Below are positions 27,701 through 52,492 of a stretch of DNA of 56,197 nt, one piece after another; the stretch's first letter is position 1, and every line of letters begins with the position of its first letter. The notes under the pieces are model-generated. The model made no database searches, was not told the origin of the DNA, and was given only the letters and a program-made list of their open reading frames with translations. The DNA lies in the IMG/VR virus record IMGVR_UViG_3300041809_000302, positions 1 to 56,197 of that record; one strand, 5' to 3'. This DNA is from a virus. The position numbers and the translations under genes are program-made.

Positions 27701-28172
27701 CATATATGTGGGCATTTGTGGGTCTACCTATGCCATCTCTACGTTCAGAAACGCAGCGTTGTTTGGCGTGGACGCTGGCACAAGCGCAGCCACGTCTTTC
27801 ATCATCAGCACGAATACTAACCTATCAAGTGGCGGGACTGCACCAATCTCTTTCGTTGCTGGCGGCTTCTCAGTAACCCCGCAACTCACAATCCAGCCGA
27901 GTGGGGCAATCCAAATCGGCGGGTCAGACACCTGCATCTCTCGCCTCGGTGCTGCTTCTATAGCAGTCGGCAACGGGACTGCTTCTGATGTTTCTGGAAG
28001 TTTGTCGCTGAAGACTATCCTGATGACAGCATCCGCTGGTGCTCCAACGTCCGCAGGGACAGCAGGAACCGCTGGACAGATTATCTACTATAGCGGGCTT
28101 GCCTACCTCTGCACGGTGACAGGTTCAGCAGGTTCTGCGACATGGAACAAGTTGAATCTAACAGCGGTATAG
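24729..28172 (+). CDS. Tail fibre/spike with pectate-lyase-type beta-helix
   Basis: 1147 residues. The N-terminus (MANTKISALTLGNPAQSGDL, then LPIDRSG) is a short fibre-attachment type. Residues about 55-130 (YGCVGNGSTDNTVAMKALL ... FPQGTFVLG) match the opening of the pectate-lyase-superfamily right-handed beta-helix common in phage tail spikes, followed by rung-like repeats to about 540. The C-terminal third is a fibre shaft with LKLPLAGGTMTGAIEM and two copies of a SRLGAAS-A-GNGTA unit. Predicted receptor-binding depolymerase or adhesin. The whole gene is bracketed by the 62-bp repeat, so it may be exchangeable. Confidence 0.8.
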   Translation: MANTKISALTLGNPAQSGDLLPIDRSGANFSITAGSVASLAGAILSIEYIVTNYGCVGNGSTDNTVAMKALLTTIGSTVATICFPQGTFVLGTSGSPATGVTFPANITLDFTAGGSIKVTTGDTVTIAGPVIAERQQIFNNATATLGTISFAGNYKTSTFFPEWWGALANGSNNDLAALQACSNAILTIQSISCGIVSLSSGNYLLGSGTWEIGNAGNPQNHIAIMGTAGGAGGTQLISYNTGTTPVIYLNNTTNCQIKDFTLQGLSITDGIGFAMGGGASTGLNTANIEFTNVGVVDFNHGWDCSGGLGTSASITLSTCIMYYCTAGVFVDNDNALAITLINPTIYFCTVGVDCGTSGVSIYGGAGSHNGTDISITNFGVNVISQFYSEVAGMFLNHTGSAACMTTVENCQVDALTGGNTTPAISIFQGSVTVSNCLLMGTVVMSGPGVILNLVNNQICDASNTYTATATPAGMGPGFRCSEAGGVFNSTNNMNITTPGFNPVVNSQADLSIWPSGRGLITVGNIASMTGYGQGAALTVSSNTISPTSYAHHVGSGLIKTIALPADSYTSVQPNQWFVAIADGTFSTDTTSNIALAINATVGQVVLFAYDPGTGLWYPSYVNPNFASMGLSRTSPALVAHTGAAMSSSVASLTTSAINTTGSNLLVVAGNCLYNTNLVVTDSFNNTWQALILYGNTGTGTYFTQISYCYSPTVGAGHTFTLTPAAGAGYYSDMEVLAFSNMTAGSTVYQASSTAGNHNTSSATLQPGSVTPANTGDLIITALSTNEYYTNISINDGFIITDRPEATSQWVAGAAAYLVTTSTNAVNPTWSTGQSGGSQSAAIAVFKSAPSLPTFTGSLGNGTTAATQAALDDSALVATTAYTDSAVGVETSRAEAAEALKLPLAGGTMTGAIEMTSGLAINWNADSGISRLGAASLAIGNGTAGDYSGSLRLTDVSVLTNNASSPAMLNVQNTNSAAETYIGVLNDLGSGIYVGICGSTYAISTFRNAALFGVDAGTSAATSFIISTNTNLSSGGTAPISFVAGGFSVTPQLTIQPSGAIQIGGSDTCISRLGAASIAVGNGTASDVSGSLSLKTILMTASAGAPTSAGTAGTAGQIIYYSGLAYLCTVTGSAGSATWNKLNLTAV

Positions 28173-29620: not shown

Positions 29621-32600
29621 ATGGGCGTTAAACCAGTAACGATGGGTCCGTGGATCAAGGGAGTCGATGCCTCGACCGGCACTCTCACGCAGCCAAAAGG
29701 CTCAATCCCTCGTGGATCAAATTTGCTGCTCTCGAAAAGAGGAAGTTTGCGGACGGCAGACGGAACCACAATCGTCGATGCCTATAACGGCGTACCAACT
29801 TCCGGCCGTGGCCGGGCCATGGCTGAGTTCTTCTTCCAACCGACTGGAGTAGCCGGATACTACCTCCGCATCATGCAGGTCTTGGATCAGCCTCTCGGAT
29901 CTCCCAAGAGCCTTGCGGGAACATTAACCGCAGGCGGAAGCCTGACAAGCGGGACCGCTTATTACTGGAGGGTCACAGCTATAGATGGCGCTGGTGGAGA
30001 GACGACGGCATCGAATGAAATCACGCTGACTCCATCGGGAGGGAACCTTTCCGTTACCCTCACGTGGAATCAGGTTCCGAACGCAGCGGGGTATCACATC
30101 TACCGCGGGACGAGTCCGGGAGCGGAAACCTTGCTGCAGACTGTTCCGGTTACCACAAATTCTTATTTGGATAGCGGTGCGCCGAGCGCAACCTTTGGGA
30201 GCTTGGCGGTAGTCTCGGTTGCCGCTCACGGAAGCACGCAGGCTTACATCACCATGGCATCCTCGTATTTTGCCATTATCGGGAGCACTGTAAATTACAC
30301 GCCGGGATCGATTCCTTCGTTTGCCGGAAACTATACGGTTGCATCCCGCATTACGCCCGCTGTGTTCTTGGTTGACGTGACTACGCAATCCCTTCTTCCG
30401 GGTACTTCTACTGGAGGGACGCTGGCATTCAGTCAGTCTCCTCCAACCAGCGACACGACCCAGCAAACCGCTCTTTATGCCATGCCTCCCGCGGCAAACG
30501 GTATCGACTACACGGATGCCAATATCGTTGCCTTGTTTCCCGCCGCTCAGGCAGGGGGAACCGCAGCGCAAGGGTACAGTCCTTCCGGGGGGATTCTAGG
30601 ATGCGTTCAGTTGTGCCCTCAGATGGCACAGTTCACGAATCAAGCCGTACTTGCCCTTGGCAACGGGTTCCGCCCTCAAGTCTATTCCGACCCAAATGGA
30701 ACACCGACCAACCCAGCAACCCAGGTTGCCATCACCGCAATCAGCGTGGATGCGAACGGAGTAGTAACGATTACGACCGCAGCCCCACATAACATCAATC
30801 CCGTAATCGCCTCCCAGAATTACCCGAAGTGGCTGGCAAATACCACTTATGCTATCGGAGATGAAGTCGTTCCGAGTCCTCCGAATGGATACTTTTACGC
30901 CGCGCAACTGCTCGGACAAAGCGGAGGGACCGAACCAAATTTCAACGAGACAGTCGGCAGCATCACTCTTGATTACTTTACCGAGTGGAAGAATATGGGA
31001 ACCCTGCCACCTCCCGCTTCGAATGAAGGAGTGGGGGCAAATGTGGTTCTCGCCGGGATCACGAATGCTGCCTACAACACGAATGGAAACGGAGTAAGCG
31101 CATTTGTCACGATTGCGATTCCCTCTGCAACCTCGGTACAAATCGTGAATCCCAACGCAATCGGCCAAGGAGCATCAAGCGGCGGAACGCTTACAGTCAG
31201 CACAATTCCGGTTGTGTCAACCTTTGTTCCATCGTATCCGGTCTGGACTGCAAGTGTCGCTTATGCCATCAACTCCATAATCGCTCCGACAGCTCCGAAT
31301 ACTTACTACTACAAGGCAATCCAAGGGGGGACGAGCGGGTCTACGGAACCGACTTTCCCAACTACCGTAGGAGCTACTGTAACCGATGGCACCGTGACTT
31401 GGCAGAATGCAGGCACGTTGCTCAGTGCCGCTCCGCCACCTCCCGGATGCGGTCATCTCGCCGTGTATTCGGGATCGCTCTGGATGTTCGACACCTACGT
31501 CACCGATACCGGCCCCAGCACCAACACAGGAACCGGGACTGTTCCGATTGCTCCAAATACCAATATCGGATTAGACGGGCCTTGTAGCCTACGAATGTCA
31601 GACGTGAATAACTTGCAGTCCTGGAATCCGATCAACCAGGCGTTTCTCGATAAAGACGATGGTACTGAAGGCATGGGACTCGGCAGTTTCACGATCGCCG
31701 CGCAGGGCATCCCGCCGGAGGGTAGTTTATGCGCCTTCAAGCGTCGTGCCGTGTATCAGATCATCGGAGTCTTTGGGGCTTCTAACTTTGCCATCCAGAG
31801 AGTCCAGAGCGACATGGGAATTCTTGCTCCGAGAACGCTGCAGTTCGTTCCCGGATTCGGATTGGTTCGACTGACCTATCTTGGTGTAGCGGTATTCGAC
31901 AGCGTGAATGACCGTATCATAAGCACGCAGGTTGCTCCGTACCTGATCGGGTCAAACGATCCCGACAATGCGGACATCATTCCACTGGATCCGCAGTGGC
32001 AGACGGTATGCCAGTCGGCTCTGACGGCTACTCCCCCGATGTACTGCTGTGCTATCCCGGTTGGTCCGCAGGGGTCATCGTTTGGGTCGCTGACAACAAT
32101 CTTGTGTTTCGATCTCGTTCTCAAAGGTTGGGGGATAGTAAATCTACCATTTCCCATATCCACCATGTTCGGGTCGGTCACGTTCTCAACCGTTGCCCAG
32201 ACAGTGTTTGGGTCTTTTAACGATGGAACGCTTCAGCAATGGCAAGAGGAAGCCGTGACTTGGGCAACCTCGGTCAGCGGATCGAGTATTCCGGGACAGA
32301 TTGCCTGGTCCATGCGGACCCCGACCAACGCTTCAAAGAACGCTACCGAGCGACTTTACCTACGCAGAGTAGCGATTTTGGGTCAGCAGACTCCGGCCGC
32401 ACCATCAACCATGACTATCCAGTTGAGGAACGGAGGAATTGTCTTTACGACACAATCTCCCACGCTCCCGGCTAGCGGAGACTTTCAGGTACAGAGCGGT
32501 ACAGGGGAAAACGGTGTTGCCGGCAGGCGGTTCGATGCGATCATCAGCGGTACGGGAATGATCACGATCGACAGCGTTGAATATCACTTGGAACCAAGGC

Positions 32601-32632
32601 CGGTCGGCGTTATGGTAGGCAGTATATCCTAA
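29621..32632 (+). CDS. Tail hub/stabilisation protein (P22 gp10-like), beta-propeller type
   Basis: 1003 residues. MGPWIKGVDASTGTLTQPKG then SIPRGSNLLLSKRGSLRTADG is the usual beginning of podoviral tail-completion proteins ('G-------P-G-----N-----G-L--R-G'). An Fn3-like module (SGTAYYWRVTAIDGAGGETT) follows, then two Trp-rich carbohydrate-binding-like repeats (WLANTTYAIGDEVVPSPPNG; YPVWTASVAYAINSIIAPT). The last third is propeller-like (VYQIIGVFGASNFAIQRVQS; GVAVFDSVNDRI). Closes the portal after DNA filling. Function by analogy. Confidence 0.7.
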   Translation: MGVKPVTMGPWIKGVDASTGTLTQPKGSIPRGSNLLLSKRGSLRTADGTTIVDAYNGVPTSGRGRAMAEFFFQPTGVAGYYLRIMQVLDQPLGSPKSLAGTLTAGGSLTSGTAYYWRVTAIDGAGGETTASNEITLTPSGGNLSVTLTWNQVPNAAGYHIYRGTSPGAETLLQTVPVTTNSYLDSGAPSATFGSLAVVSVAAHGSTQAYITMASSYFAIIGSTVNYTPGSIPSFAGNYTVASRITPAVFLVDVTTQSLLPGTSTGGTLAFSQSPPTSDTTQQTALYAMPPAANGIDYTDANIVALFPAAQAGGTAAQGYSPSGGILGCVQLCPQMAQFTNQAVLALGNGFRPQVYSDPNGTPTNPATQVAITAISVDANGVVTITTAAPHNINPVIASQNYPKWLANTTYAIGDEVVPSPPNGYFYAAQLLGQSGGTEPNFNETVGSITLDYFTEWKNMGTLPPPASNEGVGANVVLAGITNAAYNTNGNGVSAFVTIAIPSATSVQIVNPNAIGQGASSGGTLTVSTIPVVSTFVPSYPVWTASVAYAINSIIAPTAPNTYYYKAIQGGTSGSTEPTFPTTVGATVTDGTVTWQNAGTLLSAAPPPPGCGHLAVYSGSLWMFDTYVTDTGPSTNTGTGTVPIAPNTNIGLDGPCSLRMSDVNNLQSWNPINQAFLDKDDGTEGMGLGSFTIAAQGIPPEGSLCAFKRRAVYQIIGVFGASNFAIQRVQSDMGILAPRTLQFVPGFGLVRLTYLGVAVFDSVNDRIISTQVAPYLIGSNDPDNADIIPLDPQWQTVCQSALTATPPMYCCAIPVGPQGSSFGSLTTILCFDLVLKGWGIVNLPFPISTMFGSVTFSTVAQTVFGSFNDGTLQQWQEEAVTWATSVSGSSIPGQIAWSMRTPTNASKNATERLYLRRVAILGQQTPAAPSTMTIQLRNGGIVFTTQSPTLPASGDFQVQSGTGENGVAGRRFDAIISGTGMITIDSVEYHLEPRPVGVMVGSIS

Positions 32633-36984: not shown

Positions 36985-37278
36985 ATGCCCTGGAATTTAT
37001 TGCAGACCACGCTCGGTTCGGCGGCAACTCAACTGGCCCCGCCGGCAAACGCAACCTCCCAAGTCCTGTGCAGGCAGGTCATTATCCAGAATAATGCCAC
37101 CCATACGATGCGTCTCGGAGACTCTTCGGTAACGTCGTCCAAGGGAATCTACCTTGCAGTAGGTCCGGGCGGAGGATCATTTAACACGGGACCGTCAACG
37201 GTCTACAACAGTTATTTAAGTGACTTCTGGGTAGTTGGAACCAGTGGAGATACAGTCGATATTTTTTACAATACATGA
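36985..37278 (+). CDS. Small structural-type beta protein, 97 aa
   Basis: ATG 36985 after AGGAGGAAATAAG, a very strong ribosome site. MPWNLLQTTLGSAATQLAPP then CRQVIIQNNATHTMRLGDSS: a beta sandwich with turns, like small trimeric fibre or tail decoration proteins that present 'N--T--MRLGD'. Function unknown. Confidence 0.6.
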   Translation: MPWNLLQTTLGSAATQLAPPANATSQVLCRQVIIQNNATHTMRLGDSSVTSSKGIYLAVGPGGGSFNTGPSTVYNSYLSDFWVVGTSGDTVDIFYNT

Positions 37279-37312: not shown

Positions 37313-39538
37313 ATGGCTAACAACACCATACTCGCGTCAGACAACTTTGCCTCCGGCTCTCTCGCTGCCGGATGGTCACTCGCGGGATACGCTACGGCGA
37401 TGACTGCCATAACGGCGAGTGCTCCATATTACGCGGAGCCAGTAGCCGTTAACACTAACTTTTACGGACAGATTTGGACCGGCCTAACGTGGCCAAACGA
37501 CCAAACTTCTGAGGTTACTCTAGGCAATTTTGATACCACCCACGCACAGTGTTATATGTGGTTACGTCAGACCGGTACCGCCGCCTCACCTTCGGGGTAC
37601 ATTTTATTGCTATTCAACACTCAAGCCGTCGTGTACAAAGTTACGGCTGCTGCCACAACGGCTATATCTACCACCACTGGCCTTACATTCGCTGCCGGCG
37701 ATGTATGGGCGTTCTCCGCAGCCGGTTCATGCCTAACAGCAACACAAAACGGCAACCGAGTTGCGTGCATAGGTGACGCTACCTACACAAGTGGTACACC
37801 CGGTTTTATTTTGGGGATAGATTCCCTAGCGGTGACCAATTGCCAGATTGCATCCTGGCGGGGTTACAGCGCCGTACAGCAAGACGGCATCTGGCAGAAG
37901 CAGGGAATAGTTCTAGCACCTAATGCAACTGATTTAAGTGGGATCGGGGCGTACGAAGGATGTTGCATTTACGACGGCAACCCGCAACTACTAGCTGGCC
38001 CCAATGTTTACAAGCTGTGGTTCAGCGGAGGGGCTTCAGGCAGTTACAATACGTTCTATGCCGAATCGCCCGACTTGGTAAACTGGACACGCCAAGCAAC
38101 GGCGGTCCTATCTGGGTACGTCACACCGGGCATCATCAAAAACGGCAGCACGTACTATATGTACTGCCAAGCACAAAACCAGCAAGGAGGGGGCAACATT
38201 GCGTACTACACGTCCCCGGATGGGGTAACATGGACGCAACAGAGCGCGAACGTCTTATCTCTAGGGGGTTCTGGCGCATGGGATGCAGGCTCTATCTACC
38301 CCCTAAAGCCGGTGGCAATCATCAATGGCACTTGGTACGCGCTCTACGGGGCGTGCTCGGCTGCCGAACTGAGTGCGGGCTACCCCTTTAAAATAGGTCT
38401 TGCAACATCGACAGACGGCGCGGGGGCAGTATGGACAAAATATGCTAGTAACCCGGTGCTCAAAAGTCCCAATCCAACGGGGCAAGCAATATACATTTTC
38501 CCTTGCGTGGCTCAGGTAAACGGCACCTACTATATTTGGTTTGTGAGCGGCCCCAGCGCACCGCAGAATACGGCGACCTCCAGGGCTCTCGATCCGGACG
38601 AAACCGTTCGATACTCTACCACCGATTTCGTGCACTGGGCTGGACCGGTTGGAAGCATACACCACAGCCAAGTATTTGAAGCTGTTAACACCCCAATTAA
38701 CAACACCGAGCAAGTAGGAGGCAACGGGGCGATTGCTATATTCAACATAAACGGTAACGCCACCATGCTTTACTGTTTGTCCCAAGGTGACGGGGTAACA
38801 CCGGCTATTGCACAGTACGCCATCGCCGTTGCACCGGCACCAATCGCAGCTATTGTCACTGCGAACGAAGATGCGGTACAGCAGACCAAAACAGATGGGT
38901 TCACAAGCGGAGTCGGGCCACTTAGTGCTAACTGGACAACGCTCTCAGAGAACAATGCCCCAAAGATAGTTTCTGGCAACCTCGCGGAACCCTCCAGCAC
39001 CGACGGTGGGACCTCAGCAGCGGTGTTTACCGGAGCCTCTTTCACCACGAGTCAGTACGCGGAAATCACTTTGTCCGCGCTAGCGAGTGGTGGTAAAGCC
39101 TCCCCCATGGTTCTAGCTACGGTCGGAACAGGAACAAACTACCACTGCACATTGGCGGGTGCAGCCGGTTCGCAGAGCTTTCAAGCACAACTCATACGCA
39201 CGTCTACGGCAATTGGTCCGGTTCTGGGTATCACCCCCGAAGTGGGGGATGTAATTCGTCTGTCAGTAGTGCAAGGTACGTCAGGCCCGGTACTGTCGAT
39301 GTTCCAAAATGGGGCGATGATCTTTCAGTACGTGGACGAGAGTGCGAGCGCGCTGACCACAGGAAGTCCCGGTATCATCCAGAGCGAAACAAGCGGGGCA
39401 GGTTCGCAAATCAGCCTCTTTGCTGCCGGCAACGCAAACGTAATTCCTACGTACGGCGGAAGCGGGAACAGTGGTCCGGGCGTTGAGTATGGCGTCAACT
39501 CATTGGGAAGCGTGGGGACTTATGTCATCAATGGCTAA
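37313..39538 (+). CDS. Tail spike with GH43/GH32-like beta-propeller between two lectin-like domains
   Basis: 741 residues. Residues 1-190: jelly-roll (LamG-like) domain beginning DNFASGSLAAGWS. Residues about 195-520: beta-propeller resembling glycoside hydrolase clan F/J folds, with blade signatures YKLWFSGGASGSYNTFYAES, PDLVNWTRQ, NGSTYYMYCQAQNQ, YYTSPDGVTWTQ and VNGTYYIWFVSG. Residues 530-720: second jelly-roll domain (DGFTSGVGPLSANWTTL). The short Gly-rich end overlaps the next gene. Predicted to bind and perhaps cut an envelope polysaccharide. Catalytic acids cannot be fixed by eye. Confidence 0.7.
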   Translation: MANNTILASDNFASGSLAAGWSLAGYATAMTAITASAPYYAEPVAVNTNFYGQIWTGLTWPNDQTSEVTLGNFDTTHAQCYMWLRQTGTAASPSGYILLLFNTQAVVYKVTAAATTAISTTTGLTFAAGDVWAFSAAGSCLTATQNGNRVACIGDATYTSGTPGFILGIDSLAVTNCQIASWRGYSAVQQDGIWQKQGIVLAPNATDLSGIGAYEGCCIYDGNPQLLAGPNVYKLWFSGGASGSYNTFYAESPDLVNWTRQATAVLSGYVTPGIIKNGSTYYMYCQAQNQQGGGNIAYYTSPDGVTWTQQSANVLSLGGSGAWDAGSIYPLKPVAIINGTWYALYGACSAAELSAGYPFKIGLATSTDGAGAVWTKYASNPVLKSPNPTGQAIYIFPCVAQVNGTYYIWFVSGPSAPQNTATSRALDPDETVRYSTTDFVHWAGPVGSIHHSQVFEAVNTPINNTEQVGGNGAIAIFNINGNATMLYCLSQGDGVTPAIAQYAIAVAPAPIAAIVTANEDAVQQTKTDGFTSGVGPLSANWTTLSENNAPKIVSGNLAEPSSTDGGTSAAVFTGASFTTSQYAEITLSALASGGKASPMVLATVGTGTNYHCTLAGAAGSQSFQAQLIRTSTAIGPVLGITPEVGDVIRLSVVQGTSGPVLSMFQNGAMIFQYVDESASALTTGSPGIIQSETSGAGSQISLFAAGNANVIPTYGGSGNSGPGVEYGVNSLGSVGTYVING

Positions 39539-42500
39539 ATGGCTGGCACTCTCGATACTGCTTACAGTTTCAATCGCTTGGGGTCAGTCCATCATCGTAA
39601 CTGGGACCGTGGTTTCGCCATCAAATCAGCCATACTCCGGCGGCAGCGGAGTGGTACAACTGGTTCCAGGGAATGTCCAGTGGCTCGTCAACAACACAAA
39701 CCCGGTTCCAACCCCGATCACGATTTCAAGCCTTGACTCTGCCGGCCACTTCTCGGTTACGCTTACCAATACGGCCCTAATCCAGCCAGCGCAACTTGAT
39801 CCTGAATGGCAGTTCAGTTTTTGCAGCCAGTCGATTCTTGGGCAGTCTCCTGTCTGTTTCACGATGACTCCGCTGTCTCTGACCTCATCTCAGGACATCA
39901 GTTCCATAATCGTTACTCAATCCCTGCCTCTTCCTACGTCTGGAGGCGGAACATCGGTTGCCTTGCAAACCAATAGCATTCCAAACGCTTCACAAGTTCT
40001 GTTGAACCTGATTGCCGGAACGGGTATTTCCCTGTTTAACACTGGCGGAAGTGTAACGGTTGATGCGGCAGTTTCGGGCATTACTACAGGTGGTTTCCTG
40101 TCGTTTACCGGGACTACTCTAGGACTGAGCACGAGTTGCACCAACGGTCAGGCTCCGATATGGAATAGCTTGACTTCATCATGGGCTTGCGGGAACGTCG
40201 GCGGAGTGGGGACGCTGACCGGAATCACCACGGGAAACGGATCGGGATTGTCCGGCGGAGGCACCAGTGGCAGCCTGAATCTCTCTCTCATCACCAGTTG
40301 CGCGGTGACTCAAGGGCTTCTGTGGAACGGAAGCGCATGGGCTTGCGGGAACGCCGGCGGAGGACTAGCTGATCCCGGAGCAAACGGAATTATCAAGCGC
40401 ACCGCGCTCAACGTGACCGCTCCCGCTGGCTATGCGGACGTGGTTGCTTTGTGGGCTTCCTGCACGTCTGGGTTTCTGGAATTCAACGGAACATGCTCAA
40501 GCGGCACGGGAGCGATCCAAGTAAACGGCGCGCCGCTCATTTCTACGGCCACAGTCAACTTCGAGAATAGCGCGGCAACGAACGGCTTGACCTTGACTTT
40601 CACCAACCCGACAGTCGGCAATGTGCAGTTAGGCTTTACCGGCACCCTGGCGAATGCTGGCTTGGCAAATTCCGCCATAACGATCGGTGGTACGTCGGTC
40701 GCTCTCGGGGGAACGACCGTATCTTTTCCAAGTCCAGGTCCAATCGGCGGGACAACGCCGGCATCTGGTTCATTCACGACGATCAACGCCTCGGGAAACA
40801 TCACCGGGAACCTGATCGGCAACGCCTCGACTGCGACGACAGCGACGAACGCGGGTGGTCTTTCAAACTGCACCACTTCCACGCCCGGTTCTCTGTGTTA
40901 CTGGAATGGTACACAGTGGCAGGTACTGCCAGGGAACACGTCTAGTTCATTATTTCTCAATGAGACTTCCGCTGGTGTTCCATCATGGGCGACTCCTTCA
41001 GGCGCAGGCAACGTCTCAACCGGAGGGACGAATACGTCCGGGTATCTGGCTACTTGGACGAGCAATACAACGTTAACCTCAGTTCTCTCTTTACCTGCTG
41101 CCAACTTCCCGACTCTTACCGGGGATGTTTCAAACACTGGTCTTGCGACTACGGTTGTAGCCGTTAACGGAGGGTCGGTTCCGGCATCTGCTAAACTGCT
41201 TGGATCAAACAGCAGTTCCCAGCCGATTGCTGCAGCACTTCCAAGCGCTGATCTTTATGTTGGCAATGGTTCCAATCTTCCAGCGGCTGTGGCGGCATCA
41301 GGGGATGTGTCTTTAGCGAATACGGGAGCGTTCACGGTTACGGGAGCACAAGGAAAAGCGCTTCCTGCTTTGAGTTCTTTCACGAGCAATCCATACCTTA
41401 CCTATACTGGAAGCGCATGGGCAGCGGCAAACCCGTTTGCCAACCCGACATTCACCGGCACAATTACCATCGCAGGATTTGGAGGCGTAATTCAGTGCAT
41501 GCAGGCGACTGCTTCCAACCAAGTTGTCGGGACAGGCTCGCCTTGCGGCAGCGGTGGAGGCGGCGGCAACGTTACAGGGCCGGGATCATCTGTCGTCGGA
41601 GACGTTGCTTACTTCAACAACACTGGAGGGTCACTATTGGCCGATGCTGGATACCCCTATAACGCGATCCCAAACGCGGATTTAGCTCACTCTACTGTTG
41701 GAGTAGCAGGCACGAGCAATCAGATTACGAGCAGCGGTTCTCCTGTCTCGCTTGGCGGTTCGACAACTCTTGCTTTCGCCAACCCGATGACGTTGACCCC
41801 GGCGATCCTAACTGCGGGGACTACTTCCGTGGCGTCACTCTCCATGCCAAGCGGCGTAGCGCCTACTTCTCCGGCTAGTGGCAATATATGGAATTTATCT
41901 GGCATCCTGCAATTCTACGATGGCACTAATACCAATTCCCTGACTACGATTCAAGCGGCTCCAACCACGCTACATCTGCCGGAATTCAGTGGAACGGCTG
42001 GACTGCTAGCAGATTCCGGCATAGCTGTCGCCAATGTGGTCACAGCCGCAGCGAACTTCACTAGTGGCGATCTTGTAAAGGCCGCAGCCTCTACCAGAGC
42101 GGCCTCAGACTCCGGTATAGCTGCCGGGGACGTTCTGACGTACCACACTCCAGCCACAGGAATTGCACGGACAACAAGTGGCAGTCAGGCAGTGGTTAGC
42201 ACGGAGTTGAGCGGAGACGCGACTACTAGCGGATCAAACGCCGTGACCGTGGTCAAGGTTAATGGGTTGGCGGTTCCAGCCTCTAAGACCATCGTGGGCA
42301 CGAATTCTTCCAGTCAGTTTGTGGATGCTTCAAGCGCCACGCTCGCAAACAACACGACTGGAACGGCGGCTAATCTCTCAGGAACTCCAGCCCTTCCGAA
42401 TGGCACGACGGCAACCACTCAAGTGACCGGAGACAGTTCGACAAAGATAGCGACGGACGCCTTTGTCATCAATGAAGTCGCTGCTGGTGGTCCAGGTTCT

Positions 42501-44225
42501 GGAACAGTGAACGATCTGGCATTCTGGAATACTGGCACTACTCTAGGAAGCATTGGAAGCCAAGTTACCGGTCAGATACTCGTAGCAGTAAATGGATCGT
42601 ATCCGACTTTCTCTTCTTCTAGCATCATCGACAGTGCGAACTCACCAGTAACATCGGCATCCTACACACTTGCCTGCGATACGTCTACGACAGTTGTTGA
42701 CCGCAGCGCAATCGTACGTTTCCAGTCTGGAGCGACCACGCCTGTCGTTCCTCTCTCCACAGCCACTGGATGCTCAGGAATGGTGGTTAAGGTCATTGAC
42801 GAAAGCGCAGGGATTCTTGTGTTCTCTCGCACCTCACCTGACACTTTCAGCGTCTACAACGGCTCTACGGCCACAACCGGAGCAACATCCTTTACTTTGA
42901 CCAACGGAGAATATGCAACTGTGGACCAAGCGGCATCTGGGATTTGGGAGGTCAGTATTGTTCCCAGCGTCGGTGGAACCGGGACGGTCACGAGTGTTGG
43001 CATGACAGTTCCAACTGGATTGGCAATCGGAGGTCAGCCGATCACGACTAGCGGCACGTTAGCCCTAACTTGGAGCGGTACGATTCCAGTGGCTCAGATT
43101 CCCACAGCCATACCAATTGGCAACGTCGGAAGTGCGGGCCTGAGCGGAACGTCACCAGTGACCATCTCGGCAGCGGGAGCCATTGGATGCGCGAACTGTG
43201 CGGTCATCAATGGCGTAAATACATTCACCGCTGCGGGAACTATTGATCTCGCCGCAAGTACGGCAGCGGCAGCGTTGAAGATTCCCTCAGTAGCGAGTTT
43301 CACGTCAAACGGAACGTCCTCGATAGGGTCGGACGCAACGGCAAAGATTACGCATGTACCCACAAACGGTGCGGATTCTAAAGTTCTGGCAACAACTGCC
43401 ACGGACACGACCACAACCCACGCCGTATTTGCGACTGGTACGGCTGGACTGTATACCTCGCGAGCGATTGCGGCAGGCGACCTGCCTAGCGTCCCCTTAA
43501 CCGCCCTTGCCAGCCAAGCTGCGGACACGATGGTTGCCAACATGACGGCCAGCGGTGCGGTGCCTACCGCGGTAGCGATCCCGACAACAGCCCACGGAGT
43601 CTGGTTGGGCGAAGGCACGGCAACTGCTCCAGGGATCACGGCAGCGGGAACGGCAGGCCAGTATTTACGCTCTGGTGGCAGTGGGGCAGACGGTGCTTAC
43701 GCCACCTTCCCCGACACTAAAGTGTTCCCGGCTGCGAATTGCGTTTCAAGCGTTGGCGGATCGGCATGGGATACGACTCTGACAGCCGCTTGCGCAGGAG
43801 AATCCGTGAACGTCGGCGGATGGTTGCCATTCGCGGATGCTTCAGTCGCGCAGTTCAAGTTTCATTTGCCCGCAGATTGGGATACCACCGAGCCGTACAT
43901 CAACCTCGCCTTCGACACAGCAACCAATACCAGCGGGACGATGATCTTCCAAGTCCAAACTGCTTGCATCAAGAATGACGGTTCCACCTCGGACAATCCA
44001 GCGCTTAACACAGCTCAAGTATTCTCTACCGCAACAGCAGCAAACGCCAATCGCATTTTTAGCGAGAACCTGCAATTCAACGCGGTTACCTCTGGCAACA
44101 GTTGCGTAGCGAACGGTACGATGATCGTCAAAATCACGCGCAACACGGACACGGCGGCGGCAGTCGTTGGAGTTACCGAGGCAGATATAACGATTGGTAG
44201 GCTGTTGACATTGCAGGCGAATTAA
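39531..44225 (+). CDS. Giant fibre protein with Sec-type signal peptide
   Basis: 1564 residues from ATG 39531 (ATG 39522, with GGGGA upstream, is an alternative; both keep the leader). MAKWLALSILLTVSIAWGQS is a textbook signal peptide with cleavage after Ala-Trp-Gly. A small beta domain follows (VTGTVVSPSNQPYSGGSG), then a very long repetitive shaft with recurring 'W-S-A-CGN-GG-GT-TGI', 'LTGDVSNTGLATTVV' and 'VPASK-I-GTNSS' units. The C-terminal beta domain of about 160 residues (CVSSVGGSAWDTTLTAACAG) may be the binding tip. The shaft is typical of phage fibres; the leader is not. Confidence 0.75.
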   Translation: MAKWLALSILLTVSIAWGQSIIVTGTVVSPSNQPYSGGSGVVQLVPGNVQWLVNNTNPVPTPITISSLDSAGHFSVTLTNTALIQPAQLDPEWQFSFCSQSILGQSPVCFTMTPLSLTSSQDISSIIVTQSLPLPTSGGGTSVALQTNSIPNASQVLLNLIAGTGISLFNTGGSVTVDAAVSGITTGGFLSFTGTTLGLSTSCTNGQAPIWNSLTSSWACGNVGGVGTLTGITTGNGSGLSGGGTSGSLNLSLITSCAVTQGLLWNGSAWACGNAGGGLADPGANGIIKRTALNVTAPAGYADVVALWASCTSGFLEFNGTCSSGTGAIQVNGAPLISTATVNFENSAATNGLTLTFTNPTVGNVQLGFTGTLANAGLANSAITIGGTSVALGGTTVSFPSPGPIGGTTPASGSFTTINASGNITGNLIGNASTATTATNAGGLSNCTTSTPGSLCYWNGTQWQVLPGNTSSSLFLNETSAGVPSWATPSGAGNVSTGGTNTSGYLATWTSNTTLTSVLSLPAANFPTLTGDVSNTGLATTVVAVNGGSVPASAKLLGSNSSSQPIAAALPSADLYVGNGSNLPAAVAASGDVSLANTGAFTVTGAQGKALPALSSFTSNPYLTYTGSAWAAANPFANPTFTGTITIAGFGGVIQCMQATASNQVVGTGSPCGSGGGGGNVTGPGSSVVGDVAYFNNTGGSLLADAGYPYNAIPNADLAHSTVGVAGTSNQITSSGSPVSLGGSTTLAFANPMTLTPAILTAGTTSVASLSMPSGVAPTSPASGNIWNLSGILQFYDGTNTNSLTTIQAAPTTLHLPEFSGTAGLLADSGIAVANVVTAAANFTSGDLVKAAASTRAASDSGIAAGDVLTYHTPATGIARTTSGSQAVVSTELSGDATTSGSNAVTVVKVNGLAVPASKTIVGTNSSSQFVDASSATLANNTTGTAANLSGTPALPNGTTATTQVTGDSSTKIATDAFVINEVAAGGPGSGTVNDLAFWNTGTTLGSIGSQVTGQILVAVNGSYPTFSSSSIIDSANSPVTSASYTLACDTSTTVVDRSAIVRFQSGATTPVVPLSTATGCSGMVVKVIDESAGILVFSRTSPDTFSVYNGSTATTGATSFTLTNGEYATVDQAASGIWEVSIVPSVGGTGTVTSVGMTVPTGLAIGGQPITTSGTLALTWSGTIPVAQIPTAIPIGNVGSAGLSGTSPVTISAAGAIGCANCAVINGVNTFTAAGTIDLAASTAAAALKIPSVASFTSNGTSSIGSDATAKITHVPTNGADSKVLATTATDTTTTHAVFATGTAGLYTSRAIAAGDLPSVPLTALASQAADTMVANMTASGAVPTAVAIPTTAHGVWLGEGTATAPGITAAGTAGQYLRSGGSGADGAYATFPDTKVFPAANCVSSVGGSAWDTTLTAACAGESVNVGGWLPFADASVAQFKFHLPADWDTTEPYINLAFDTATNTSGTMIFQVQTACIKNDGSTSDNPALNTAQVFSTATAANANRIFSENLQFNAVTSGNSCVANGTMIVKITRNTDTAAAVVGVTEADITIGRLLTLQAN

Positions 44226-44250
44226 TATGAAACGCTTATCCGAGGGTCCA

Positions 44251-45060
44251 ATGAAACACGTCATTATATGGCTTGTGCTATCGGCGTGTTCTTGGGCGAG
44301 TGTTACCCTGGAACAGATTTCATGTCCCGGTAATGCTGATTGCGCTACACCCGTAGCAACTTGTACCGTAGCTTTTACATTGGACACTGTCAATGCCGGT
44401 GATCTTGTGGTGGGCATGGAGGTTGCTCAAGAATCTAGTTTATCGTTCCCGCAAACCTTCCAGATACCTACCGATAGCTACGGCAACACTTACGCTCTTG
44501 CTGGCGGAACCGCTAACCAGATGAATCTTGATTTGGGCGGCGATGGTCCTTACAGTAGCGCAGAATTTTATGGTGTAATCACGACCGGTCATGCGGCAAA
44601 TTTCAATATAACGATGACTGTTAGTGGTGGTAATTTAACTTCAGACTGGAACGTATGCATGTACGACTTCCGGGGAATTTCGCCGGTACTTACAACCACT
44701 AACGTCCTAGATGGCTATAACTCTCATTGCGTTACGAATCCCTGTTCGGGAGCACAAGGAGCAGACGCAGCTTATACCAGTTCTTCTCCCATCACCACAA
44801 CTAAATCTGGGGATATCATGGTGGCCCAGCGAGCGTGGGGAACCTGCACTGCCAATGCGGGAACGGGATGGACCGTAGAGGACACTTTAGGCACTGATTC
44901 CGAATACATTATCCAAGGGGCGGCGGGAACCTATGACGCTCTTTATGCGGATTGTGGAACTACGCCATTCCACGACACCTACAGTGTCGAAGATGTTGCA
45001 TTTCTAACCGTTACTCCGGGTACTCCGGGCATCTCCAATCAATTCCCGAGGGTCAATTGA
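44251..45060 (+). CDS. Secreted Cys-rich beta protein with signal peptide
   Basis: 269 residues from ATG 44251, chosen because GAGGG lies four bases upstream; ATG 44227 lacks a site. MKHVIIWLVLSACSWASVTL is a signal peptide. The mature part is a beta-sandwich type seen also at the start of the BACON fibre (VNAGDLVVGMEVAQESS; SGDIMVAQRAWGTC) with several Cys (CPGNADCATPVATC), suggesting disulfides formed after export. Confidence 0.7.
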   Translation: MKHVIIWLVLSACSWASVTLEQISCPGNADCATPVATCTVAFTLDTVNAGDLVVGMEVAQESSLSFPQTFQIPTDSYGNTYALAGGTANQMNLDLGGDGPYSSAEFYGVITTGHAANFNITMTVSGGNLTSDWNVCMYDFRGISPVLTTTNVLDGYNSHCVTNPCSGAQGADAAYTSSSPITTTKSGDIMVAQRAWGTCTANAGTGWTVEDTLGTDSEYIIQGAAGTYDALYADCGTTPFHDTYSVEDVAFLTVTPGTPGISNQFPRVN

Positions 45061-48000
45061 AGCGCTTTTCCCTGATCGCATTTATGCTCTCCGCAACCAT
45101 GGCCTTTGGGTCTGCGACAACGCTTTACGTCGCGCAGTCAGCGGGAACCTTCAGCGGTGGCTCGGCCTGCAATGGGCAGACAGCAGTTTCGCTCGCAACT
45201 GCCAATGGCAGCGGTTTTTGGGGAAGTGGGAGCACTCAGGCTGGACCGGGAACGACGGTCTATCTCTGCGGAGCGCTCACGGCTTCGGCAGGGGCGGTTG
45301 GCCTCAACATCCAGAACAGCGGCACCAGCGGAAGCCCTCTCATTATTTTGTTTGATACCGGAACGACTTTCAAGTCTCCTAACTTTGCCGGATCGGCGCA
45401 AGGCTCTCCATGCTCTTCGTCTTGCGGCGGAATTGAAATCCTGAATCAGTCCTACGTAATCATCGACGGTGGATCGAACGGCATGATGGAGAATACCGCC
45501 GCAGGAAGTTCCACAATCACCTGCCAGAGCGGAAGCGCCTGTACCTATCATGGCGGGACTGTGGCCGTGTGGGTGAAAGGCGCACACAACATCGTCCGCA
45601 ATCTGACGATCCAGCACGTCTACGACAGTTGCGGGGCAACGAATTGTTCGGATACTTCCGGCAGTGACGTGACCTCCGGTATCACTGTGGATACAGGCGA
45701 AGATAACGATCTGATCTGCAACAACTCGATCAGCGACGTAAGTTATGGGTTCAGTTCAGACGCTTCGGGATCGGCTCCGACGCCATCGTCTACGGTCAAT
45801 TGCCAGTCGAACACAATTCCCACGGGCATCTCGGTTTATTGGAATACCTTCAACGACGCCTGCCATCACATTCAGCCAAACGGCTCCGGCTATATCGACA
45901 TCGGGTTCAACTTCATCGGCACGTTTACGAACTGGATTTGGCCCGGCACTGGCAATGGTTGCCATACAGATGGAATCATTCTCTATGGAGATTCGAGCAA
46001 GTTAGTAGGGTATATCCATCACAATGAGTTCTCCGGAGATCTTGGTCTTGGCAGTCCGACGGGAGAAATATACTGCACATATGGTGGCGGTGAAAGCCAA
46101 TGCTACGTTTATCGCAACCTGTTTATCGGAATCGGCAACGACCCAACCTGCTGCCAGGGAATTTCCTTCGCAGTAGACAGCGCTCCTGGGGCCATGGGGC
46201 CATACGACGAATATAACAACACGCTATCCGGTTATCTTTACATGTTCGAGAAGTACGGCGAACTGACCGCCGACACCTTCGACTTCCGTAATAACATCTT
46301 CGTCACCCCGAGCGGTGGCTACCACTACCAAGAGCAGAACGGTGGAGTCTGCACGCATCAGACCATCAATGGTGACCTCTATAACGGCGGCCGAAGTTCT
46401 CCGTGGGGATTATGCGGAGTATTGGTTGGGAGTCTGTCCACTTGGCAATCGGACTGCACTTCTGGTGGCGGAACCCTATGTGATGCCAAGTCTTCAACGA
46501 CAGCGGCAAATCTCAGCGCTGGCTACGTCCCGAATAGTGGTTCACCTGCGATTACTCTTGGCGATAATCTCACAAGCTTAAGCATCCCAACCCTGAACAT
46601 TGGTGCCCCGCAGACCTTCGGCGCTGGTGGGTCATGCGGAACCGGATGTCTAGCAGCGGCGGCGACAGGAAACTGGGATGCGGGGGCGTATCCGTTTGCA
46701 TCTGCATCAGTGGTTCCTCCGACCGTCACCACCACAACTGTCACCAGCATCACGGCCACGAGCGCATCTTCTGGAGGCACGGTCACATCGAACGGCGGGG
46801 CTAGCGTTACGGCAGAAGGGGTGGCTTATGGCACTTCGCCTAACCCGACATCGCCTTGCACTGGCAGCGGCACCGCTACGCCTTACACAACAACACTTAA
46901 CTCCTTATTGCCAAGCAGACTCTATTACTATCGCGCTTGTGCCACGAACTCAGCGGGAACCGGATACGGCAGTGATCTGTCGTTCACAACCTTGGCCGCT
47001 ACGAGCTGTGCTAATCTTGGGCACACAGCGCAAGGCGGAAGTCTCGGACCTCCTAACTATGGTCAGCTTTGCACTGATTTGAATCTCGACACGCTCGGTT
47101 ACCTTCCCGTACTTCAAACAAATTATGCGGCGGATTACGGGGCCACCGGAGCGGGGATGTGCGATTACAATTCCTTCGGGCAAAAGGTTTGCCGCCTCAC
47201 TGACGCTCTCACGGACCCGAATTATGTCGGAGCAATCTATGCCAACAACAACACAGGAGCGGATCAGGACAATCATATCGCCGGTGACCATTCGAGCGTT
47301 ATCGTGCAGTCAAACTCGGCGGAACGAACCTTCATCATCCTGTACAACACTGCGACAAACACGTGGACCGGATCGCTTGGCTCCCCAGGCGGATGGCCTT
47401 CTGCTACGGGATACAATCCGTACTACATATTATCGAGGAACGTCGCCTACAATCCGCTCAACTCTAAGCAGGTTTATGCACTCTACGTCAACAAAAGCAC
47501 GCCTTCCGCCATCTTGGACTTGATCGACTTCACTAGCTGTGTGTCGAATGGTGCTCCCGCTGCTACCTGCTCTCCCACTGTTACTCAGATAACCGACTTT
47601 GCTCAGGATACCTGCGGAACCGGGACGAAGCTTGTAAACCAATCCCCAACGCAAAGCAACGGCTTTGGCTTCTACCCGACCTACACAACGACGATTCAAA
47701 TCGACAACGCTGGTCAGAACATCACTTGGGGCATGTCGAACAACCAGCCGGCGGTTCCGGGATCTGGTCAAGGTGCTCAGAATACGGGAACGATCATGCT
47801 CTCATGGAGTATTCCTGCCCATGGATGCCGGTACTACAACATCGGCGGAGCGACCTACTGGGGAGTGGGAGCGCAACAGGTTGCTGGCGATTGGGGTCCA
47901 ACCGGGCCAGTGACCATGCAGTATTACACGCCATGGTCTGGGTCAAATAGCTATGCGCTGAACACCTTGATGCAGCCGACCAGCAATAATCCCACGCACC

Positions 48001-49313
48001 TCTACTTCAAAGTCACGACTGCGGGCACGTCTGGATCAAGTCAGCCGAACTGGAGTAGCTCTTGCGCCACTACTTGCACGGACAGTGGGGTGACATGGAC
48101 AAACCAAGGCGCACCTTATTGCAGCACGGATGGTACATACTCAGACGAATGGACGCTGCACTCCATGTTTGTAACACCGAGCAATTGGACGGAGATCGCC
48201 AATGGCGCGGGACAGGGAGCTTGCACCACAGCGGAACTTCAGGGACCCTATAGTTGGCAATCCACCACACTGAACGTTGCGGCTAATACGTTCACCAGCG
48301 GCGGCCACTTTTCCGGTGGCTACTCGCACGTCATGCAGGGCACGAACAGCCCGCAAGGGCAGACCGCGGTCGCTTCTTTCGTTCCGACCCAAATCGGACC
48401 CGCCTACAACACGCTTCAGTCAAGCTACGTCGGCATCTCCAACAGCACCTACCTCGACATGCATTTCACCTGTAACGGGGAGAACATCTACGATTCTATG
48501 CCCTGTTATGTTACGAACACGTCTTACACGACAGGGCACGGTAGCTTGAACCCAGCAACGGTGGGGAATCCGGGATACGATTACGCGAACAACGGCTGCG
48601 GACTCCGCGATCCCATGTCAGCGTGGTCCGGTCCTCCATTCAACTGCGGCAACTTGAATCCCTTCAGCGGTTACGGCGTGAACGAAGTACGTCTCTATCC
48701 GATGGCTGTTCCGATGGGAGGCACGACATCTTGCACTTCAGCTCCATGCGCTGGCACGCAGGCTCCGTTGCGCGTCAGCCCGAATTATCTCGGAGCTAAC
48801 GGCTGGAGCTTTAACTCGCAGAACGCGACGATTGATTCAGGAATCGATAACGCAATGGTTACCGTCACCACTGACATGCTAGGAACGTTTGGGACAATCT
48901 GGAATTCGCAAGTGACCGGATGCGGCGGCAATACTTGCTATCGTCCAGTGCAGGGTGGTCCACCGTGGCAAGCGGGTCACGTTTACAACGCTGGAGACGT
49001 GATTACCTCGCAGACAGTAGCGGTGTCAGCTACCGTTTCAACCGGAACACAAGCATTATATTGCACGTTCTACACCGTGGCTGGAGGAACCAGCGGAACC
49101 CCTACAGAGCCCACTTGGACGAATGGAGGGCACACGGCTTGTTTGGCGAGCGTGACAGACAATGGGGTTACGTGGGTTCCGGTCACCAGCACCAACTATG
49201 GGGCCACGACCTACGCTGGGCTGACGAATGCGCGTACCGACGTGATTGCTATATTTACTGGCAACCCAGCCACAATTAGCGCTCCCTCTGCTCTGATGAT
49301 TGGTGTACCTTAA
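45057..49313 (+). CDS. Giant secreted beta-helix/Fn3/propeller protein with signal peptide
   Basis: 1418 residues from TTG 45057, which overlaps the preceding stop and has GAGGG upstream, in a sequence context very similar to the previous gene's start. MKRFSLIAFMLSATMAFGSA is a signal peptide. Residues about 20-560: right-handed beta-helix (IEILNQSYVIIDGGSNGMME; NLTIQHVYDSCG). Residues about 570-650: Fn3-like (SRLYYYRACATNSAGTGYGS). The rest: a propeller-like or lectin-like region with many Trp and Cys. Predicted extracellular adhesin or carbohydrate-active protein. Confidence 0.7.
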   Translation: MKRFSLIAFMLSATMAFGSATTLYVAQSAGTFSGGSACNGQTAVSLATANGSGFWGSGSTQAGPGTTVYLCGALTASAGAVGLNIQNSGTSGSPLIILFDTGTTFKSPNFAGSAQGSPCSSSCGGIEILNQSYVIIDGGSNGMMENTAAGSSTITCQSGSACTYHGGTVAVWVKGAHNIVRNLTIQHVYDSCGATNCSDTSGSDVTSGITVDTGEDNDLICNNSISDVSYGFSSDASGSAPTPSSTVNCQSNTIPTGISVYWNTFNDACHHIQPNGSGYIDIGFNFIGTFTNWIWPGTGNGCHTDGIILYGDSSKLVGYIHHNEFSGDLGLGSPTGEIYCTYGGGESQCYVYRNLFIGIGNDPTCCQGISFAVDSAPGAMGPYDEYNNTLSGYLYMFEKYGELTADTFDFRNNIFVTPSGGYHYQEQNGGVCTHQTINGDLYNGGRSSPWGLCGVLVGSLSTWQSDCTSGGGTLCDAKSSTTAANLSAGYVPNSGSPAITLGDNLTSLSIPTLNIGAPQTFGAGGSCGTGCLAAAATGNWDAGAYPFASASVVPPTVTTTTVTSITATSASSGGTVTSNGGASVTAEGVAYGTSPNPTSPCTGSGTATPYTTTLNSLLPSRLYYYRACATNSAGTGYGSDLSFTTLAATSCANLGHTAQGGSLGPPNYGQLCTDLNLDTLGYLPVLQTNYAADYGATGAGMCDYNSFGQKVCRLTDALTDPNYVGAIYANNNTGADQDNHIAGDHSSVIVQSNSAERTFIILYNTATNTWTGSLGSPGGWPSATGYNPYYILSRNVAYNPLNSKQVYALYVNKSTPSAILDLIDFTSCVSNGAPAATCSPTVTQITDFAQDTCGTGTKLVNQSPTQSNGFGFYPTYTTTIQIDNAGQNITWGMSNNQPAVPGSGQGAQNTGTIMLSWSIPAHGCRYYNIGGATYWGVGAQQVAGDWGPTGPVTMQYYTPWSGSNSYALNTLMQPTSNNPTHLYFKVTTAGTSGSSQPNWSSSCATTCTDSGVTWTNQGAPYCSTDGTYSDEWTLHSMFVTPSNWTEIANGAGQGACTTAELQGPYSWQSTTLNVAANTFTSGGHFSGGYSHVMQGTNSPQGQTAVASFVPTQIGPAYNTLQSSYVGISNSTYLDMHFTCNGENIYDSMPCYVTNTSYTTGHGSLNPATVGNPGYDYANNGCGLRDPMSAWSGPPFNCGNLNPFSGYGVNEVRLYPMAVPMGGTTSCTSAPCAGTQAPLRVSPNYLGANGWSFNSQNATIDSGIDNAMVTVTTDMLGTFGTIWNSQVTGCGGNTCYRPVQGGPPWQAGHVYNAGDVITSQTVAVSATVSTGTQALYCTFYTVAGGTSGTPTEPTWTNGGHTACLASVTDNGVTWVPVTSTNYGATTYAGLTNARTDVIAIFTGNPATISAPSALMIGVP

Positions 49314-49330
49314 AGCATAAAGGAGACTGT

Positions 49331-50005
49331 ATGCGGAAAATTGCAGTGATTTTAGTCCTGTTAGCCAGTTTCGCTTTTTCGCAGTCGCACCAACCGCTTA
49401 AAGCTAAGATCGTCAGATCAGCTAGTGGCGCGAGCGTGTCACTGACTTGCACTTCTCCGGGAAGCGTGGCTGTTGCTTTCAACTTCTATCGCGGTACGGT
49501 TTCAGGTGGTCCGTACACGATACTCGGAACTAGTCCCATGGTAGCAACGTGCGCCTATACGGATGCTACGGTTTCTCCGGGGACAACGTACTACTACGTG
49601 GCGACGGCGCTTGATATTGCCGTAGGCGCGACCTGTCCAACTGGGCAGACGTGCGAAAGTGGCTATTCCAATCAGGCGACTGCTGTTGTACCATTCCCGC
49701 CTCCTCCTAATCCTCCGACTGGATTGACCGTTGGGACAATCGTGGGAACGAGTGTTCCCCTGGAGTGGGTCCCGCCCGTCCCTCAAACTGGGGTATATGT
49801 TGATTACTATGCAGTCTTTACCTGTAGCGGGAAGTTATGCCCTAATCCCGTTTGGATTTCAAGCGTAAGCATACCGGGATACACCGATACTAGCTGCACC
49901 CCGCGTCCGCGAGTCTGTCGTTATTTCGTAAGGGCACATGACACAGTTGCTGGCCTAAAGGTAGTAACGGCACGCAGCAACATTGCTACGGCGGTTGTCC
50001 AGTAG
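49331..50005 (+). CDS. Secreted two-domain Fn3 protein with signal peptide
   Basis: 224 residues; AAAGGAG six bases before ATG. MRKIAVILVLLASFAFSQSH is a signal peptide. Two Fn3 domains follow (YTDATVSPGTTYYYVATALD; a second from PPTGLTVGTIVGTSVPLEW). Five or more Cys may form disulfides. Small companion of the giant secreted genes. Confidence 0.75.
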   Translation: MRKIAVILVLLASFAFSQSHQPLKAKIVRSASGASVSLTCTSPGSVAVAFNFYRGTVSGGPYTILGTSPMVATCAYTDATVSPGTTYYYVATALDIAVGATCPTGQTCESGYSNQATAVVPFPPPPNPPTGLTVGTIVGTSVPLEWVPPVPQTGVYVDYYAVFTCSGKLCPNPVWISSVSIPGYTDTSCTPRPRVCRYFVRAHDTVAGLKVVTARSNIATAVVQ

Positions 50006-50902: not shown

Positions 50903-51216
50903 TGAACGGGTTAATGACGAAGTTGCTTGGAAGTTCATGGCGCACGACTATTGGAGGCGCGATGGTTGGCGTTCCGCCTTTAGTGTTCGCAGCAGCACAG
51001 GCAGCCAATATCACCTTTGGTCACTGGACGTTGTTCGCTCTTACCTTAACTACAGGATTAGGTGCCTTGATTCTCGGCGGAAACGCAAAGGATCAGCAGG
51101 TCCATTCTACCGCCGCGCAAGTTCAAGTGGCGACCATTGACGCTGGGCCGCAACCTGATCCGGCGACGGTCGCAGCAGCACAGGCGGCACTCGATGCCGC
51201 CAAGAAGGGACTATGA
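50902..51216 (+). CDS. Holin-like membrane protein, 104 aa
   Basis: Two hydrophobic segments (TTIGGAMVGVPPLVFAAAQA and WTLFALTLTTGLGALILGG) are followed by a soluble Ala-rich tail (PATVAAAQAALDAAKKGL). Size and topology fit a class II type holin, which would permeabilise the inner membrane at lysis. The longest of the three small membrane proteins in this cluster and the best holin candidate. Confidence 0.6.
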   Translation: MNGLMTKLLGSSWRTTIGGAMVGVPPLVFAAAQAANITFGHWTLFALTLTTGLGALILGGNAKDQQVHSTAAQVQVATIDAGPQPDPATVAAAQAALDAAKKGL

Positions 51217-51806
51217 CCATGCAAACTCGAAGGGGATTCATCCAGCGTGTATCCATGCTGTTCGGTGCGCTCGCCGTATCCGGTGGAACCATGTTTATGT
51301 CTGCTTGTGGGGTTGTAAACAATCTTCTCACCGCATTCCAGACTATCCTGAATATCCTGTCCGCGGCCGGCTTGGTTCCCGGGGGAGCTTTAGTCACAAC
51401 GGCTCTATCCGCGGTCATTTCCGAATTGCAGGCATACGAATCAGCGCCAGCAGCCGACAAGGATTCGATTGGTATGGATCTGTCTCTGGCCATTCAGTTG
51501 GCTCAGGCACGTCTGCAGTCATGGTTCTCTGGTCTGAACTTGACGGGACCGCTGGCGGTTGTGATCGAGAGTTTGGTGAGCGTCATCCTTTCGACGCTGG
51601 CTGGGCTACTGCCAACATTACCTGTACCCCCACAATCCAGATATGCAGCTATCAGCTCTGAACTCAAGGCAGTTCCGCATCCGGTCATCTATCGTCCGGT
51701 TGGAACGATCATCATCAACAAGAAGGGTCTGCGGAGAGCTTATGAGCAGTTCCGGACCAGTTTCAATGCAGTTTTAGTCGCCTACGGCTACCAGAAGGCA
51801 TTCTGA
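51213..51806 (+). CDS. Tat-type lipoprotein in the lysis block
   Basis: 197 residues. MTMQTRRGFIQRVSMLFGAL then AVSGGTMFMSAC: a twin-arginine motif T-R-R-G-F-I-Q (Arg6-Arg7), a hydrophobic stretch and a lipobox ending at Cys32. This is a Tat-routed lipoprotein leader as used in diderm bacteria. The mature part is helical and hydrophobic (NLTGPLAVVIESLVSVILST). ATGA and TGATG overlaps tie it to the holin-like and peptidase-like genes. It might act like an outer spanin or exclude superinfection; neither is shown. Confidence 0.7.
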   Translation: MTMQTRRGFIQRVSMLFGALAVSGGTMFMSACGVVNNLLTAFQTILNILSAAGLVPGGALVTTALSAVISELQAYESAPAADKDSIGMDLSLAIQLAQARLQSWFSGLNLTGPLAVVIESLVSVILSTLAGLLPTLPVPPQSRYAAISSELKAVPHPVIYRPVGTIIINKKGLRRAYEQFRTSFNAVLVAYGYQKAF

Positions 51807-52492
51807 TGCCATTACCTAGACCGAGAGGAGCTACGCCATCACCGAGACATGAACTAGCAGCGGCTAGTCCGCATGTCATTGAAGGCGTGGCTCCTGCCCA
51901 ATTTCTTCGCCTTCCGTCAAAGCTATCCATGTGGCTGAACGACGTTGATGGAGACTGTGTTACCGCGGAAGAAGCCTTTAAGGTCGCCTGCATGAATCCG
52001 GAAGTGTTTATCACCGATTCAACCGTCCAGGCGTGGGCCTCGGCTCGCGGAGTGCTGAATGGTGCCGTTATCTCCGGAGTGCTGTACATGATGCACAAGT
52101 GGGGATTCGAGCAGGGCGGCGTGAATTACGGAGATGGCGACAAGCATGGCATCGACTGGACAAATGCCCCGCTTCTCCAGAATGCAATTTGGAAAAGCCC
52201 GGTAAAATTCGGAGTGGCCGGCGATCAGTTGGAGTATGCCGTGCCCAGCCCTCCGAGCAATGGTTGGCTCGCTACCGGATTCCAACAGGATACGAACGAA
52301 GATCACTGTGTGTCTCTTAGCGGATATGGGCCAATCTCGTGGCTGGCCAGCCAGCTCGGCACCCAGATCGACAGCAATGCTCCAGGATATGCGTTATTCA
52401 CATGGTCATCGGTTGGAATCATTGATGTGCCCTCAATGCTGGCGATAACCGGGGAAGCGTGGATTCGCTCCCCAGGTACGGTAATCAGATGA
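51806..52492 (+). CDS. Cysteine-peptidase-like protein, candidate lytic enzyme
   Basis: 228 residues. GDCVTAEEAFKV (Cys51 at a helix start), NEDHCVSLSGYG (His167 at a strand start) and ALFTWSSVGIID (Trp200) give the Cys-His order of papain-like folds. Proteins of this type are known to me from soil bacterial genomes with no assigned role. No muramidase, amidase or other endolysin is seen in the window, so this gene, next to holin-like genes, is the best candidate for cell-wall or protein cleavage at lysis. No signal peptide. Confidence 0.6.
   Translation: MPLPRPRGATPSPRHELAAASPHVIEGVAPAQFLRLPSKLSMWLNDVDGDCVTAEEAFKVACMNPEVFITDSTVQAWASARGVLNGAVISGVLYMMHKWGFEQGGVNYGDGDKHGIDWTNAPLLQNAIWKSPVKFGVAGDQLEYAVPSPPSNGWLATGFQQDTNEDHCVSLSGYGPISWLASQLGTQIDSNAPGYALFTWSSVGIIDVPSMLAITGEAWIRSPGTVIR

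Follow-up and report, generated by a model that had tools for sequence, protein, structure and literature searches.

To our knowledge, every part of a tailed-phage virion, the fibres included, is assembled in the cytoplasm, which makes an export signal on fibre-like proteins surprising. The lambda side tail fibre Stf and the neck and tail fibres of cyanophage A-1(L) are encoded at a late tail-gene location and combine a small N-terminal beta-sandwich with a long variable body, beginning directly with the domain and carrying no Sec leader. T7 gp17, itself leaderless, is encoded behind the tail and internal-protein genes and ahead of the lysis genes. Known depolymerase tailspikes are also leaderless virion parts made in the cytoplasm. 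Sec signal peptides do occur on virion coat proteins of filamentous phages, pIII and pVIII, with virion completion outside the cytoplasm, but these phages are an unrelated, membrane-assembled class and not dsDNA tailed phages. Among phage proteins that leave by the host Sec system, the endolysin Lys44 of phage fOg44 has its signal peptide cleaved and serves in lysis (PMC6116005). In the open-access literature, we found no published precedent for leader-bearing tail fibres.

Here we describe a run of four genes at 39531-50005 in an uncultured virus of bacteria; the window analysed is an entire IMG/VR virus record, 56,197 bases long. The first protein, gp39531, is arranged like Stf and the A-1(L) fibres, except that a leader precedes the domain. 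The run occupies the place of T7 gp17 in the gene order, while the gp17 N-terminus shows no sequence similarity to a run protein (E 0.71). Large size, beta-richness and possible polysaccharide-active domains are shared with depolymerase tailspikes. Exit by host Sec would be shared with Lys44, a lysis enzyme, whereas no endolysin or lytic domain was matched in the four run proteins with Pfam, PHROG or NCBIfam. The sequence gives good support for Sec export of the run proteins from the infected cell, and fold, gene order and architecture suggest that the mature proteins are most likely virion fibres or spikes attached outside the cytoplasm.

Leader genes in the late region

Terminase (13311), portal (16121) and capsid (20563) genes are recognisable in the window. 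Conserved late proteins at 28373 and 29621 are followed by four or five small or medium genes up to 36700. Next come a gene of 97 aa and, at 37313, a spike-type gene without a leader; the four leader genes follow, and behind them lie lysis-type genes. This order resembles that of T7 (portal, scaffold, capsid, tail tube, internal proteins, fibre, lysis). Because profile comparison gave no sequence match to T7 gp11, gp12 or gp17 in the window, T7-type names are positional labels only, and the T7 tail-tube naming was dropped. The phage is probably short-tailed, the short-tail and tail-tube assignments coming from gene order.

The 1003-aa protein at 29621..32632 (plus strand, as are all window features given below as ranges with two dots) is a conserved tail or hub candidate, and was used as the lineage marker. 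Two leaderless spike-type genes at 22414..28172 (22414-24729 and 24729-28172) were not seen at that place in near relatives; the former carries viral BACON and TIG domains and sits between capsid and tail genes. The leaderless fibre/spike-type protein at 37313..39538, directly upstream of the leader run, has a weak GH32-like match, and its domain family also has a leader-bearing member in a relative (L069:19269). Beyond the run, papain-like Cys/His motifs were seen by eye at 51806-52492 and in another relative (L040:17056), with no family match.

A preliminary description had assigned Sec-type leaders to the ORFs starting at 39531, 44251, 45057 and 49331, and both the ORF coordinates and a leader rule bear this out. 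The rule, a rule-based prediction, looks for a basic n-region ahead of a hydrophobic core that is free of charges, with small residues at -3/-1 of the cut. Among the 52 window ORFs of at least 90 aa, it passes the four run genes and 51213, which is Tat-like, and no others (Fisher P about 2e-5). Shuffled N-termini satisfy it in 1.8% of cases. Calibration on an annotated segment from E. coli gave passes for 8 of 9 Sec proteins, 3 of 13 membrane proteins and none of the 23 cytoplasmic ones.

The predicted exported, fibre-like gp39531 (39531..44225, 1564 aa) consists of a leader, a beta-sandwich N-domain and a long variable shaft. Its leader, MAKWLALSILLTVSIAWG (39531..39584), is predicted to be cut before Q19, and AlphaFold places a helix at residues 3-15 and the domain from residue 20. 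The Cys-rich gp44251 (44251..45060, 269 aa) is predicted to be exported with a leader at aa 1-16; a start at 44227 is also possible, and its LSAC is a possible lipobox. For gp45057 (45057..49313, 1418 aa), a TTG start overlaps the upstream stop and the leader spans about aa 1-18. The protein resembles a pectate lyase/beta-helix by eye only, its AlphaFold model (pLDDT 33) being unusable. The Fn3-like gp49331 (49331..50005, 224 aa) is predicted to be exported with a leader at about aa 1-17. Cysteines number 20 in gp39531 (1.3%), 9 in gp44251 (3.3%), 46 in gp45057 (3.2%) and 8 in gp49331 (3.6%), so that three of the four are Cys-rich, as had been noted.

At 51213..51806, a Tat-like (RRGFIQ) leader is accompanied by a lipobox-like SAC. 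This family, unusual for a phage, adjoins lysis-type genes and is conserved in relatives (L040:15770, L052, L097, L098, L101, L105 and L091).

The starts at 44251 and 45057 had been described as sharing an almost identical context, taken as a duplicated export signal. A 16-nt match (CCGAGGGTC plus start) is indeed present, but it covers the Shine-Dalgarno and start region only, and 8 of the 741 other pairs of starts agree equally well. With only that region shared and the leader-coding parts of the two genes not aligning, a duplicated export signal was rejected.

Leaders and cysteines across the lineage

Relatives were collected with the 29621 protein as query, giving 13 and later about 40 viral-collection records, several of them 54-56 kb long. 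Twenty-seven records, a few of which are near-duplicates, reach 10 kb beyond the marker gene. Large leader-bearing genes lie right after the internal-protein-like genes in 26 of the 27; three of these pass only if a weaker ribosome-binding site is allowed. Record L083, the twenty-seventh, had been a candidate exception, which was rejected when four leader-bearing genes were found immediately upstream of its marker block. Among genes upstream of the marker, 3 of 172 pass the leader test. The leader run is thus not peculiar to one genome, and the relatives, whose lack of leaders the preliminary description had named as contrary evidence, retain them. In two records the marker gene is broken into two overlapping ORFs (L008:10001-12792 and L015:9986-12798). 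Late-block ORFs with the look of a GIY-YIG homing endonuclease, by eye, were seen in L067 (224 aa, after the first leader gene) and at L082:8089-8910.

The 26 genomes yielded 80 leader proteins, with 2-6 large ones per phage. Q stands at +1 after the predicted cut in about 72 of the 80, with A-x-A/G/S before it, the cut-placing script having favoured Q. Wider scans with other leader-bearing N-domains return essentially the same lineage. Leaders are also fused to a fibre-start-like motif (L058:8313) and to a collar-like motif (L077:22240).

Host-like leaders could mean that ordinary bacterial secreted-protein genes were picked up by the phage or by chimeric assembly. We consider this very improbable, since 27 records, drawn from many metagenome sets, share the arrangement and the N-domain of gp39531 has no match in prokaryote genome contigs. 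Scans of prokaryote genomes with the marker and N-domain profiles found no relative. Searches for isolate relatives with the exported proteins, with the capsid protein and with 24 kb of genome sequence found none, and the terminase match to isolates is only about 26%. The host may, very tentatively, be a member of the Acidobacteriota.

Cysteine makes up 2.2% of leader proteins versus 0.76% of other late proteins, about a threefold difference (Mann-Whitney P about 1e-21, which overstates independence because the sequences are related). Homologues without leaders serve as natural controls. A single leaderless homologue of the N-domain (L079:6316) starts Met-Ala exactly at the mature-domain N-terminus, although other proteins of its phage do bear leaders; it has no Cys in the domain, versus two to four in the aligned stretch of leader-bearing homologues. 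A module at aa 957-1018 of gp45057 (47925..48110) is common to the non-exported 29621 protein. All 5 exported copies of the module contain Cys, 3 of them two, whereas among the 38 other copies Cys occurs in 10 and no copy has two. A small gene heads the run (window 36985-37278; L036:11229-11612, L042:7822-8223, L061:17913-18308 and L041:11340-11630); a second family found at this position has two Cys in its three leader-bearing members and none in its one leaderless member. Leaderless homologous domains thus mostly lack the Cys pairs, while the leader proteins have them, as is characteristic of an oxidising compartment. It is this combination of lineage-wide leaders, Cys enrichment and leaderless homologues without Cys pairs that makes export well supported.

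The leaders could instead be uncleaved hydrophobic N-termini for membrane anchoring or virion packing, as the anchor-like look of some long leaders (L079:20800) and the purely rule-based prediction would allow. The consistent A-x-A/G/S-Q cut region, the gain of paired Cys and the start of the leaderless homologue at the mature N-terminus make this improbable. The ORF with the long leader just cited (L079:20800-21629) has a long basic n-region and a hydrophobic segment followed by VANGGTG tail-fibre-type repeats, and may be an anchored or exported fibre.

Fibre likeness of the predicted exported proteins

The N-domain of gp39531 (aa 20-135, 39588..39935) is predicted to be a transthyretin/CnaB-like sandwich, in which C98 and C109 are invariant in the five closest aligned sequences. 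AlphaFold models it with pLDDT about 96 from residue 20 to about 135, directly behind the leader helix. Across residues 1-141, which include the leader, identity to relatives is 65% and 54%, but the remainder is largely unrelated, and the N-domain is seen once or twice in most relatives. A conserved N-terminus with a variable body is characteristic of tail fibres, as is the position of the leader genes in the late structural block. The leader itself is what sets these proteins apart from tail fibres.

Structural matches to the N-domain by VIA-align include carboxypeptidase regulatory domains and pilin CnaB domains. Phage matches are to the A-1(L) neck fibre (Z 8.3, 8keg) and tail fibre (7.4, 8kec), the Ur-lambda tail tip (7.3, 9e7m), the Bxb1 tail tip (6.9) and the XM1 neck (6.5), values of 6.5-8.3 being moderate scores for a common sandwich fold. 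All five matches lie at the N-terminus of the phage chain, the first three covering residues 1 to about 95. The N-domain also matches the tail fibre of a podovirus in BFVD (E 3.6e-4). Profile comparison with the N-terminus of the lambda side tail fibre aligned 89 columns at E 0.012, versus 0.33-0.75 for three controls.

Family matches are sparse, most of the 77 members matching none. Those found are to GDSL lipase, CBM_5_12, Malectin and the K1-lyase C-terminal domain, and inside the run of one relative lies a leader-bearing GH18 protein with Hydin-like Ig domains (L037:5367-7262). Such matches, with the beta-helix-like look of gp45057, could mean that the proteins are secreted and never on the virion, acting as depolymerases, lyases or chitinase-like enzymes. 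Their role would be to remove matrix or capsule from around the host and so let progeny leave and spread. We regard this as unlikely, because enzyme domains are rare among the members, the recurring N-domain looks like fibre anchors, and tailspikes too are enzymes.

In seven relatives, read over nearly their whole length, no fibre- or spike-like gene without a leader was seen beyond the run. This bears on another use of export, in which the proteins would coat the cell's own surface or released debris, their fibre modules serving as decoys that mask receptors against superinfection and progeny loss. Identical domain families occur with and without leaders, turnover is fast and the Tat-like lipoprotein family adjoins the run, all of which would suit decoys. 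Such decoys would require several very large proteins, no outer-membrane anchor was identified, and the relatives would be left without an evident virion fibre; we therefore rate this possibility marginally below that of secreted enzymes. The argument by elimination for virion fibres is suggestive only, because the 29621 marker protein, which carries carbohydrate-binding-like and Fn3-like modules, could itself be a receptor binder. The window, with its three leaderless spike-type genes (22414, 24729 and 37313), may not depend on exported fibres.

Proposed completion of virions outside the cytoplasm

We propose that the products of the run are tail-fibre and spike-type proteins, each synthesised with a cleavable Sec signal peptide. 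They would leave the cytoplasm of an infected, probably diderm, host, fold and form disulfides outside it, and attach to progeny virions at or after lysis. In gp39531, attachment would be through the N-domain, exposed at the mature N-terminus by leader peptidase. That the proteins are Sec-exported fibres or spikes, disulfide-bonded outside the cytoplasm and joining virions at or after lysis, we judge to stand at about even chances. A more tentative, somewhat less probable extension is that a whole lineage of tailed dsDNA phages makes fibreless virions, to which such receptor-binding fibres are added in the periplasm or medium, the attachment domain being exposed by signal peptidase. Two points count against fibres: 2-6 large exported proteins per phage are many for that purpose, and the exported GH18 protein suits an enzyme role.

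The preliminary description is thus upheld on export by the infected cell, though not on the duplicated signal. Among the uses of export that it listed, gain of the proteins by the virion outside the cell fits best, ahead of decoys, adhesins or spreading enzymes, because of the fibre-like N-domain, the late structural position and the lack of another visible fibre gene in the relatives.

If fibres are made for export, virion assembly would be divided between compartments, disulfides would become usable in receptor-binding proteins, and infectivity would become tied to the Sec and oxidation machinery of the host. Should the virions lack these proteins, they would still constitute a large, fast-evolving phage secretome, liable to be mislabelled as ordinary tail fibres in late-gene annotation.
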